64,000 bases of DNA, from positions 1 to 64,000 of the forward strand of contig NZ_FMAD01000018.1 of NCBI RefSeq assembly GCF_900094595.1. Direction: 5' to 3'. This stretch comes from Cupriavidus alkaliphilus. GTDB taxonomy: Bacteria > Pseudomonadota > Gammaproteobacteria > Burkholderiales > Burkholderiaceae. Positions 29,204-45,560 of the stretch are shown one piece after another. A program made the translations under genes and the position numbers. Within the stretch, counting starts at the first letter, position 1, and every line of letters begins with the position of its first letter. The notes under the pieces were generated by a model. That model was not told the origin of the DNA and ran no database searches. It worked only from the letters and a program-made list of their open reading frames with translations.

Positions 29204-29329
29204 GTTTCACTCCCGGTGAAGAGTGGCACGCAGGTGACGAGTACGGGAATCTGGCGGCCGTGCATGGCGCTCGGGCTCATGCGAAGCACGCGGATAGGTC
29301 GACTCGCCTCCGTGCGAAACCACGGATCA

Positions 29330-29436
29330 GCGAGCGCCGTTGAAGACAGTCCGAGCCTGGCGGATGGCAGGGGCGACTGTGCCGCCGGCCGCGCGATGTG
29401 CCTCGCGGGGCCTCCATCCGTTGCAACGCTCCTCGG
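29330..29436 (-). promoter_or_regulatory. SAH (S-adenosylhomocysteine) riboswitch
   Basis: On the minus strand the leader of ahcY begins CCGAGGAGCGTTGCAACGG (29436-29418), continues through a GC-rich variable stem, and then shows CCAGGCTCGGACTG and CAACGGCGCTCG (ending near 29330). CCGAG of the first block pairs with CTCGG of the second, and GAGCG with CGCTC of the third. These are the conserved blocks of the SAH riboswitch class, known to lie before ahcY in Ralstonia and relatives. When SAH binds, expression is turned on, raising AhcY (and probably MetF) when SAH builds up. Confidence 0.9.
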
Positions 29437-29445
29437 AGTGGCGGT

Positions 29446-35007: not shown

Positions 35008-37083
<2,076 letters not shown>

Positions 37084-37292
37084 TTCATCCAACGGGTTGA
37101 ATTTAAGCACAGAGCCCCGGTGGGCGCCAGTGCCAGTTCGCCACCACGAGTGGTGCCACAGCTGTGCAAAAAGGTATCGAATCGCGCATGCTGCATCGCA
37201 AAAACCCGCCGCAAGCGGACGAACAGGCACTCCTACGCGCGCGGCGTGATCTACCATGCAAGCAAACGGCAAGTCCCGACCCAGGAGACACC

Positions 37293-42333: not shown

Positions 42334-43281
42334 TCACGACACCAGCATCGGCCGCCCGAGCATGCGCGACAGCACTGCCTCGGGCGAATGGGTGTGGTCC
42401 GAAATTGCCTGCGGCGCCAGGTAGATGGTCTGCTCCATCATCGCGCGCCCGCGCATGGCGGCGTGCAGCAGCTGGTCGCTGAAGACGATCCAGGTCGCAC
42501 CGGGCGGGAAGTGGAATTCCTGCTGAGGCACGTTGGCCTGGTAGTCCAGGTCGGCCTTGGCCAGATCATGCAGCTGCAGCATGCGGTGGTCGTATTCCGA
42601 GCGGCGGCGCTTGGTGATATGCAGCAGCTTCATCAACGCGGCCTGCCCCGGCCACATGCCGTGGGTCCTGGGCACGAACTTCTGCGCGAAGTCGCCAAAC
42701 GGCTCGCCCACCCGCCACACGCGCGGCGCAGCCGGGTCGATATTGTGGAACACGCGCAACAGGCGCTTGCCCAGCATCGGGTTGGACGGAAACGAGTCCA
42801 CATGCAGGCGGGTATCGTCCTTGCGCCAGCTGACCGGGCGCCCGGCGATCTCGCTGGGCCGCAGCGAGGTGCCGGCGCGCGTCATGTGGGGGATGTATTC
42901 CGGGAACAGCGTGCGGATCAGCAACTCGCTGCTGTCGGCGTAGCGGCGGATCAGCGTGTAGAGGTCGGACAGGTCCTGCGGGCTGCCTTGCGCGCCGCGC
43001 ACCGCGGTGTCGTCGGCGCGCAGGTTGATGTTCTTGGACTTGCCGTCGGAATAGCGGCTGTCGAGGAAGCGTTCTTCGCCCGGCTGGAAGTGGAATTTCA
43101 GCTTGGGGAAGTAGAGTACCGCGCCCTGCTCCAGCTCGCGGCGCAGCGTGGCGCGTTCCTCGGGGGTGACCTGGGGAGCCCAGTCGGCGTAGGGCTGCGG
43201 GCGGATCAGGTCGAGGGTGCCTTCGGATGCGGAGCGGGTCGGCGTCGGCGTGGCAGTGGCAACGGCTGGTGCAGCGGGCAT
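42334..43281 (-). CDS. kdoO: Kdo 3-hydroxylase family protein
   Basis: A 315-residue Fe(II)/2-oxoglutarate dioxygenase of the Kdo hydroxylase family, which converts Kdo in the LPS inner core to Ko in Burkholderia, Yersinia and relatives. Metal-binding residues are probably HVD in DTRLHVDSFPSNPMLGKRLL and the His in SDQLLHAAMRGRAM. No signal peptide is present, as expected for action at the cytoplasmic face on Kdo2-lipid A precursor. Two LpxL-type acyltransferase genes lie about 2.4 kb away. Upstream there is a gene-free stretch of 980 bp. Confidence 0.87.
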   Translation of the reverse strand: MPAAPAVATATPTPTRSASEGTLDLIRPQPYADWAPQVTPEERATLRRELEQGAVLYFPKLKFHFQPGEERFLDSRYSDGKSKNINLRADDTAVRGAQGSPQDLSDLYTLIRRYADSSELLIRTLFPEYIPHMTRAGTSLRPSEIAGRPVSWRKDDTRLHVDSFPSNPMLGKRLLRVFHNIDPAAPRVWRVGEPFGDFAQKFVPRTHGMWPGQAALMKLLHITKRRRSEYDHRMLQLHDLAKADLDYQANVPQQEFHFPPGATWIVFSDQLLHAAMRGRAMMEQTIYLAPQAISDHTHSPEAVLSRMLGRPMLVS

Positions 43282-43392
43282 GGAGGTCCTCTGGGGATGG
43301 GCCCCGGAAAGGAATTTTTTGTGGTCGGGGGGATTTTACTACTGGGGAATGGGATGGCGTTTGGGGTGCAGTTCTGACTTTCACGCGTGGTC

Positions 43393-43490
43393 GCTGTTGG
43401 TGACATGCTGTCGGCTTTTGAACCGCCTGGTTCCGCCCTCCTGGGCGGGTCACTTTTTGGCCAAGCGCCAAAAAGTAACCAAAAAGCGCG
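43393..43490 (+). repeat. left arm of 98-bp inverted repeat
   Basis: This arm reads GCTGTTGGTGACATGCTGTC at its outer end and ends AACCAAAAAGCGCG. It is the reverse complement of 44057-44154, with about four mismatches in 98 bases. Within the arm two small hairpins can form: CCGCC/GGCGG around 43433-43448, and ACTTTTTGGC with GCCAAAAAGT around 43452-43476. Confidence 0.9.
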
Positions 43491-43712
43491 TCGCCTAAGC
43501 GGCTGGCTAAGGCGGCGTTGGTGGTTGCAACCGTGGTGACTTGCGGTCAGGCGGTTGGTGGTTCCACCCTGCTGACGCTACCTGGAGGTGCCTGGCGTTC
43601 AAGGTCGGATGGACGAACCCGACTTTAGGTCGGTGGCAGCCTGCTAACGGCGTTATTGGTGGGACGCCTTCGGCTGCGCTGCGCGCGCTCCCAATCTCAG
43701 GTCTACGGCACT

Positions 43713-43827
43713 GGCACGGAGTGCGTCGCTGCGCTCGCACGCGCTGTCGCGGCGCGTACACGGAAGCAACGCGAATCGTGCGCACGTACCGAAAGCGCCA
43801 AGCGAGCGCAGCGAAGCGCTCCGTGCC
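43713..43827. repeat. inner 25-bp inverted repeat within the element
   Basis: Bases 43713-43737 (starting GGCACGGAG and ending GCTGCGCTCG) are the reverse complement of 43803-43827 with three mismatches; 65 bases lie between the arms. The pair is nested roughly in the middle of the 98-bp outer repeats, giving the element a two-level dyad symmetry. Confidence 0.8.
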
Positions 43828-44056
43828 AAGACCCACGCCCCGCGATACTGACGGCGCAGCAGCCGTAGGCGTTCCTACGACAAGGCCCGCAGCAGGCGGC
43901 CACCAAGCGCTCTGGGCTCGTTCAAACACCCCTCCAACGCCCCTGCCACCGTCGCGCACCACCGCGGCAGGCAGTCCAGCTATGTGAGGAAGCAAAGCCC
44001 CGTACGAAAACCCCCAGGCACACTACGATAAGACATGCCGCCCGCAGGGCAGTAAA

Positions 44057-44154
44057 CGCGCTTTTTGGTTACTTTTTGGCGCTCGGCCAAAAAGTGACCC
44101 GCCCAGGAGGGCGGAACCACACGGTTCAAAAGCCAACAGCATGTCACCAACAGC
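44057..44154 (-). repeat. right arm of 98-bp inverted repeat
   Basis: This is the partner of 43393-43490 in inverted orientation, about 96% identical, with the same internal hairpins (TTTTTGG...CCAAAAA and CCGCC...GGCGG). It ends about 109 bases from the metK stop codon, so on the minus strand a metK transcript would read into it; it may act as an end structure for that transcript. Confidence 0.9.
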
Positions 44155-44262
44155 AACGGCGACGGCGCCACAAAAAAACAACCCCACCAACCCTCCCGAG
44201 CCAGTGGGGCATACCGAAGCCAAAAGCGCCAAAACCAGCGCCCGAACCCCGGAATTATCCTC

Positions 44263-45426
44263 TTACAACCCCGCCGCAGCCCGCAACGCAGCCGCCTTGT
44301 CCGTCGCTTCCCAAGAGAACTCCGGCTCTTCACGCCCGAAGTGCCCATAAGCAGCCGTCTTCTCATAGATCGGCCGCAGCAGGTCCAGCATCTGCACGAT
44401 GCCCTTCGGCCGCAGGTCGAAATGCTCCTGCACCAGCTCCGCGATCTTGGCGTCCGGAATCTTGCCGGTGCCTTCGGTATAGACCGTCACATTGATCGGC
44501 CGCGCCACGCCGATGGCGTAGCTGACCTGCACCTGGCACTGGCGCGCCAGGCCCGAGGCCACCACGTTCTTGGCCACGTAGCGCGCCGCGTAGGCAGCCG
44601 AGCGGTCGACCTTGGACGGGTCCTTGCCCGAGAACGCGCCGCCGCCGTGCGGCGAGGCGCCGCCGTAGGTGTCGACGATGATCTTGCGCCCGGTCAGGCC
44701 GCAGTCGCCCTGCGGTCCGCCGATCACGAAGCGCCCGGTCGGGTTCACCAGGTACTTGGTTTCCTTGAGCATCTCCGCCGGCAGCACCGGCTTGATGATC
44801 TCCTCGATCACGGCCTCGCGGATCTGCGCCTGGGTGATGTCCGGGGCATGCTGGGTCGACAGCACCACGGTGTCCACGCTGTGCGGCTTGCCGTCGACAT
44901 AGCGCACCGTGACCTGCGACTTGGCGTCAGGGCGCAGCCAGGGCAGGCGGCCGTCGCGGCGCAGCTGCGACTGGCGCTCGACCAGGCGGTGCGCGTAGTA
45001 GATCGGGAACGGCATCAGTTCCGGGGTCTCGTCGCAGGCGTAGCCGAACATCAGGCCCTGGTCGCCGGCACCCTGGTTCAGGTAGTCGTCGGAGGCGCGG
45101 TCGACGCCCTGGGCGATGTCGGGCGACTGCTTGTCATAGGCCACCAGTACCGCGCAGCCCTTGTAGTCGATGCCGTAATCGGTGTTGTCGTACCCGATGC
45201 GCTTGATGGTGTCGCGCGCGATCTGGATGTAGTCGACGTTGGCGGTCGTGGTGATTTCCCCGGCCAGCACCACCAGACCGGTGTTGCAAAGCGTCTCAGC
45301 TGCCACACGCGCATACTTGTCCTGCGCCAGGATGGCGTCGAGGACGGCGTCGGAAATCTGGTCGGCGACCTTGTCGGGATGGCCTTCGGAGACGGATTCC
45401 GAAGTAAAAAGGAAGTCGTTTGCCAC
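44263..45426 (-). CDS. metK: S-adenosylmethionine synthetase
   Basis: A 387-residue MetK making SAM from methionine and ATP. Signs are [40 protein letters not shown], the P-loop-like [23 protein letters not shown] and the C-terminal [16 protein letters not shown]. The start is GTG at 45426, giving VANDFLF, with TGGAGAA upstream; the ATG at 45474 would add 16 residues unlike the family. It is divergent from the lpxL pair. Together with ahcY, metF, metW and metX the window covers most of the methionine/SAM cycle. Confidence 0.95.
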
Positions 45427-45560
45427 GAACTTATTCTCCAGGTTGGCTATTGCGTGCCAGCCTGTTCGGTTCATGGCGGCGACGCTTTAGCGGTATTTCA
45501 GGCAGCCCGGTTAGAGCCGCATCGCCCCGCAAGTTGTCAGTTAACTCGGCGATACACGCT

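Follow-up and report, generated by a model that had tools for sequence, protein, structure and literature searches.

REPINs are doublets of REP sequences that form hairpins, with motifs of 16–25 bp and ~70 bp between the ends, and their movement is tied to a linked RAYT (Bertels and Rainey 2011, PMC3116915). BIMEs of enterobacteria are mosaic arrays in which REPs are joined by other modules, and prokaryotic MITEs are IS-derived elements of 50–500 bp with TIRs and duplications (PMC10969869). In E. coli, SbcCD cuts long interrupted palindromes once they have folded on the lagging-strand template, and recombination mends the resulting breaks (PMC3315005). Most of what is known about bacterial palindromic repeats concerns short REPs mobilised by RAYTs; the repeats described here are a much larger, modular form outside the RAYT rule, with one hairpin frame common to many genera.

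The element was analysed in a 64,000-nucleotide stretch of Cupriavidus alkaliphilus DNA (the window; contig NZ_FMAD01000018.1). It is ~770 bp long (771 bp) and lies beside metK, between the 5′ end of a Kdo hydroxylase gene (42334–43281, minus strand) and the metK 3′ end (44263–45474, minus strand). Its features, in window coordinates, are as follows.

43327–43386, plus strand: left flank, rich in keto bases (G+T 0.70 on the strand that runs towards the element)
43387–44157, no strand: whole element, a mosaic inverted dimer (L unit plus inverted R unit), with the same extent in copies L044, L047 and L048
43390–43491, plus strand: left arm, repeated in all full copies
43398–43413, plus strand: outer-end motif TGGTGACATGCTGTCG, with a right-hand copy at 44134–44149 (minus strand)
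43420–43433, plus strand: h1, small hairpin GAACC-GGTTC, weakly conserved
43434–43447, plus strand: h2, GC hairpin CGCCC-TCCT-GGGCG, then TCACTTTTTG, terminator-like
43448–43480, plus strand: h3, hairpin GGTCACTTTTTGGC-caagc-GCCAAAAAGTAACC, the conserved signature, then AAAAA (43481–43485)
43492–43752, plus strand: type L core, also in solo copies L051, L052 and L054–L056
43712–43738, plus strand: inner dyad, left half
43794–44055, minus strand: type R core, also in R+R elements L047 and L048 and solo halves L049 and L050
43802–43828, minus strand: inner dyad, right half
44056–44157, minus strand: right arm, an inverted copy (95%)
44067–44099, minus strand: h3 hairpin of the right arm
44100–44113, minus strand: h2 hairpin of the right arm
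44158–44217, minus strand: right flank, likewise rich in keto bases (G+T 0.72 on the strand that runs towards the element)
44181–44210, minus strand: metK's own terminator-like hairpin, outside the element

The arms are 102 nt long and 95% complementary with 564 nt between them, within a few bases of the 98-bp arms (~96%) and 566 bp enclosed that the first-pass annotation had given. The 25-bp inner inverted repeat it described is real; measured in full it spans 56 nt at 71% (43683–43738 and 43802–43857), with its tight part at ~43712–43738 and 43802–43828. The whole element folds strongly (z −20 against 20 dinucleotide shuffles), and each arm folds into small hairpins as had been noted (z −4.6 and −3.2; −4.0 for the part with h2 and h3 alone). 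Matches to the MIR918 and mir-H4 Rfam families in the window lie far below the gathering score and merely reflect the inner dyad. A coding interior is ruled out, and the element is non-coding, because its inner ORFs match no Pfam family and homologous copies differ by indels of −5, +4, −1 and +1, which are not multiples of three, in agreement with the earlier view that no credible gene lies inside.

In its organization the element appears to work most like REPINs and BIMEs on a larger scale. As in REPINs, inverted pairs of a short hairpin motif surround a less conserved spacer, the whole unit can fold into one long hairpin with compensatory changes, and dispersal is extragenic, with singlets that resemble remnants; dispersed extragenic inverted hairpin pairs are thus present as in REPs and REPINs. 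However, the Cupriavidus arms are ~100 bp with interiors of 360–900 bp, no RAYT is linked to the element or flanked by the repeat, and the h3 base (GGGTCACTTTT) has no GTAG or GGAG head in the arm alignment, the tetranucleotide by which REPs are defined (PMC2817692). The element resembles BIMEs in being mosaic, modular, palindromic, extragenic and located at the 3′ sides of genes, but its units are much longer, carry other motifs and form inverted dimers rather than arrays. No description of the element, and no report of its motif as a bacterial sequence, was found in the literature searched (which includes Cupriavidus genome papers and leaves most subscription journals outside), and Rfam does not contain the palindromic element as a unit. 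With moderate confidence, the feature as a whole is read as one copy of a clade-specific, non-autonomous palindromic family whose behaviour is governed by breakage and REPIN-like spread.

A search of the same genome with the element returns 60 matching places that resolve to ~20 loci, and copies are also found in other Cupriavidus genomes, so that the dispersed structured element envisaged by the first-pass annotation is borne out; it had named arms occurring nowhere else and an interior conserved as a protein family as evidence to the contrary, and instead the arms are repeated and the interior belongs to no family. Comparison of copies shows ~365-bp units, each an arm joined to a core, which is of either the L or the R type. 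Four copies in this genome, the window copy among them, are L plus inverted R, two are R plus inverted R, and the remainder are either solo halves or mosaics that include further modules; both halves are L-like in the elements of C. lacunae. In type-2 arms h2 is replaced at the same place by an unrelated but still perfect hairpin, TCGCCGGC-GTA-GCCGGCGA. Some elements have non-complementary outer arms or discordant hairpin alleles. The outer modules of type-1 arms, type-2 arms and C. lacunae differ, and within this genome the outer-end motif is shared: all 17 of the 17 places that match TGGTGACATGCTGTCG with 0–1 mismatches are element ends. Dispersal, mosaicism and exchange of cores among copies are seen directly, and the family consists of dispersed, non-coding palindromic repeats in Cupriavidus. 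A 41-bp stretch with the outer-end motif is tripled in tandem at one end of L044 (G000:C15:377988, 378029 and 378070). A manganese riboswitch is located near one copy (L044:3126–3362) and a C4 antisense RNA near another (L058:3597–3691).

The exact hairpin is carried by 18 of 60 Cupriavidus genomes and by none of 259 genomes from other genera of the family, and among 84,980 GTDB 220 species genomes it occurs in 74 stretches, all titled Cupriavidus. Carriers cluster on the metK tree (5 changes versus 10.1 with shuffled labels), which argues that the Cupriavidus family is mostly inherited within a clade. The hairpin has no match among 72,556 plasmids and is in no IMG/VR contig; a relaxed pattern is found in 20 of 2.9 million IMG/VR contigs, many of these being chance matches that lack an inner stem or sit close to the end of a contig. 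Contigs often begin or end inside the element in Cupriavidus (loci L145, L192, L200, L209, L210 and others), so draft assemblies under-count it, and the element accounts for recurrent spurious short 'hypothetical proteins' as well as contig breaks in Cupriavidus assemblies.

The part of the arm that is maintained is the local, covarying hairpin h3 (GGTcACTTTTTGGC..GCCAAAAAGTaACC). In 58 distinct arms, 99.1% of its cells are paired, three pairs have changed on both sides and one pair is seen as GC, TA and CG; its covariation score is reached by 0 of 500 shuffles and is above that of all slid versions too. In the same arms h2 is 99% paired yet nearly invariant, and h1 was rejected as a conserved hairpin, being merely 84% paired. 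The high similarity of the two arms had been attributed to recent origin or to selection for pairing, and neither is upheld, as arms are equally alike between elements of one genome: likeness within and between elements is 0.913 versus 0.911 in C. lacunae (p 0.20) and 0.974 versus 0.969 in this genome (p 0.32, from four pairs only). A shuffle across genomes seemed significant, but this is a species effect, and the within-genome shuffles reject pairing between arms as a selected trait. Since arms are no more alike within than between elements and the local hairpin stays paired, constraint falls on the local hairpin, and arm similarity is explained by local hairpins together with genome-wide homogenisation rather than by arm-to-arm pairing.

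Genomic sites were classified with a home-made, codon-usage gene finder trained on the window, not with curated annotation. All 84 copies with both neighbours present (several species) are intergenic: 44 are in convergent, 38 in tandem and two in divergent gaps, compared with 42, 328 and 70 of the other gaps in those loci (Fisher p 1e-12, convergent versus divergent), with counts that are not fully independent, orthologous sites being common to several species. The copies in this genome alone are distributed as 9 convergent, 10 tandem and 1 divergent. Copies therefore favour the 3′ sides of genes and are almost never between divergent promoters, an arrangement expected if each arm (a GC hairpin, then T5) stopped transcripts from either neighbour and the element were kept by selection as a two-sided terminator or insulator. 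The combination of h2 and TCACTTTTTG does score as terminator-like on both arms, and the swap of h2 for an unrelated perfect hairpin in type-2 arms also fits. This explanation is nonetheless unlikely: the T run begins ~4 nt past the stem, an unfavourable spacing for intrinsic termination; neighbours such as metK keep their own terminators; sites are empty in close relatives; an interior of 564 bp, exchange of cores and mutated flanks are not called for by a terminator function; and the same 3′ bias is also expected from purging out of promoters.

Occupancy of orthologous sites differs by species: a site may hold a full, an exchanged or a collapsed copy, or be empty. Next to metK, other species show an element that is full, of the R+R form or type-2-ended, or have a collapsed palindrome of 60 bp, or lack any copy; the 60-bp palindrome (G070) consists of the two element ends only. 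Turnover of this kind is also seen at 12 further sites compared with five relatives, where another collapsed palindrome was found (L317). No excision intermediate was seen at the sites compared. A short palindrome, CTCTCCCGC..GCGGGAGAG, occupies relatives' orthologous sites (L323, L329 and L315) where this genome has the element, and these sites look like general repeat landing zones.

Such presence and absence between species, together with repetition in intergenic positions, inverted AT-hairpin ends and a conserved outer-end motif, is shared with a classic MITE, that is, a deletion derivative of an IS with TIRs and target duplication, moved by the IS transposase. The MITE-like relic proposed earlier stands in so far as the element is dispersed and non-coding; its ends, however, are fuzzy, modular and variable (the outer modules differ among type-1, type-2 and C. 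lacunae elements), and the 100-bp arms exceed the length of the conserved hairpin. No target duplication is visible at the filled and empty site pairs compared, where flanks have diverged, in keeping with the first-pass annotation, and no parent IS with such ends was met in any locus read. The sole transposase met inside the copies read is an inserted 419-aa transposase-like ORF, which we take by eye to be IS256-like, found in opposite orientations in the exopolysaccharide locus of two species (L081:2444–3703 and L083:2197–3456). These two loci have ~1.3–1.5 kb of extra sequence; seemingly autonomous copies with 1–1.5 kb interiors (exo locus of G014, G008 and G015) are explained by this nested insertion or by other nested repeats. 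The element cannot be assigned as a MITE on present evidence, and we regard a MITE origin as improbable.

Relatives of the arms are found more widely. Of 369 Gammaproteobacteria genomes, 25, belonging to 23 genera, contain a relaxed pattern, GTNACTTTT-N(8–30)-AAAAGTNACCAAAA, whose reversed control is found in none of the 369. The part of the stem left free by the pattern is also complementary, at a mean of 3.6 bp compared with 0.6 (maximum 1.5) for shuffled sequences. A partner arm is present on the opposite strand in about ten genera, mostly 300–600 bp away, and on the same strand in none of the genera with matches. The signature is often preceded by a GC hairpin and often followed by a short hairpin and a CCCTGCG-like stretch. 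These matches place hairpin arms in at least 22 bacterial genera besides Cupriavidus. A common origin with the Cupriavidus arms is likely; homology of the arms across genera would rest on ~21 constrained bases and the architecture, for which convergence may be an alternative.

All ten of the G420 elements fetched (L351–L360) match the TwoAYGGAY RNA family (RF01731), for which CsrA binding has been proposed (PMC4333381), and the RNA makes up their inner core. In paired copies the match occurs once per inverted half, on the minus strand at the left and the plus strand at the right, and ANGGA loops exceed the shuffled expectation in G420 and G458 elements. Both observations fit an outward-facing pair of regulatory RNA genes, such as CsrA-binding sponges, and TwoAYGGAY may often be part of dispersed palindromic repeats, although Rfam covers the inner RNA only and not the hairpin-armed palindrome. 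For the Cupriavidus element such RNA genes are very improbable: neither the window element nor nine other Cupriavidus loci match the TwoAYGGAY clan above the gathering score, no promoter-like site was found in the window element, and no Cupriavidus element has an ANGGA loop on a stem of at least 4 bp, on which ground a CsrA sponge was rejected there. That the element, 105 bp past the metK stop, is the 3′ structure of metK, as once suggested, can be dismissed, since metK's own terminator at 44181–44210 separates the gene from the element and persists in species that have no copy, and copies adjoin many unrelated genes.

The sequences on either side of the element have a mirror-image composition. 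In 156 flanks from several species, G+T on the strand reading inwards starts at 0.72 over the first 20 bp and declines to 0.64 at 60–90 bp, 0.56 at 130–200 bp and 0.50 at 500–1000 bp, a gradient that spans ~200–300 bp; in the direction of the element, the share of C drops from 0.34 to 0.16 and that of T climbs from 0.16 to 0.30. G+T exceeds 0.5 in 34 of 36 flanks in this genome and 44 of 46 in C. lacunae, and 23 of 27 flanks in other genera have the same sign, with a weak effect in G420. Transcription is excluded as the cause, as the keto skew has the same sign with ++, +− and −− neighbours; other gaps have values of 0.43–0.56. There is no difference in flank G+T where the relative also has the element, whereas flanks in this genome are higher where the relative is without it (0.618 versus 0.582, paired p 9e-6). 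Against empty orthologous sites, the differences within 200 bp comprise 134 C>T and 62 T>C, and at 200–400 bp neither direction prevails; these substitutions, which are unpolarised, were drawn from 12 sites, each compared with up to five relatives, and they share a direction on only 11 of 17 site-sides. Alternatively to mutation, insertion may in part have favoured sites whose composition was skewed beforehand.

From this composition and these unpolarised substitutions we infer breakage and resection at the element, and the mirror-image mutation signature suggests that palindromic repeats act as break and recombination hotspots. Cytosine deamination produces C>T changes in exposed single strands. 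The T-enriched strand on each side would be the 3′-ending strand after a two-ended break at the element, so that exposed single strands would acquire C>T on the 3′-ending strand of both flanks. The palindrome would often break, be resected and then be repaired from other copies, leading to arm homogenisation, core swaps and sometimes loss of the body to give collapsed palindromes. The element resembles the interrupted palindrome cut by SbcCD in being a long, fold-back inverted repeat, and two-ended breaks with recombination would match the two-sided flank signature; that palindrome is an engineered one of 246 bp in E. coli (PMC3315005), whereas cutting of the Cupriavidus element is suggested by its flanks. 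The flank composition would then be a readable record of the fate of DNA around such repeats, and it predicts breakage and resection. A broader proposal, put forward tentatively and with more doubt than belief, is that a class-wide superfamily of hairpin-armed palindromes forms self-perpetuating hotspots of breakage and recombination, which are cut, have both 3′ ends resected and mutated (C>T on the 3′-ending strand) and swap interiors in repair, spreading without a dedicated transposase; if so, hotspot palindromes would directionally mutate the 3′ regions of neighbouring genes.

In the break and REPIN-like reading, the element would spread and persist as an oversized, non-autonomous REPIN or BIME, for the most part a selfish or neutral sequence whose presence at the 3′ ends of genes is tolerated. 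Its arm hairpins would be recognised by an enzyme acting in trans, more probably as single-stranded DNA than as RNA, and new sites are likely colonised in this way; spread by break repair only would be the alternative. No mobilising enzyme or transposase for the element was identified among the candidates considered. Of 60 Cupriavidus genomes, 59 have a single RAYT-like gene, carriers and non-carriers of the element alike; that of this genome, a Y1 transposase gene at G000:C29:51293–51556 (L254), has neither the arm nor recognisable REP-type repeats of the element family beside it. No arms were found beside Y1_Tnp genes in loci fetched from 17 arm-bearing genomes, and seven of 24 arm-bearing genomes have no Y1_Tnp match. 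A RAYT was consequently rejected as the mobiliser, the gene being independent of carriage and not arm-flanked, with the same result in other genera.

At least eleven near-identical Y1_Tnp copies, all with one in-frame TGA, are present in G050 (e.g. C3:267665–267997), a set that has the appearance of a multiplied IS200-like element with a shared stop. Elsewhere in the window, a TPP riboswitch (RF00059, 69.8 bits) is located at 36990–37091 and an SAH riboswitch (RF01057, 62.7 bits) at 29325–29440, both on the minus strand.
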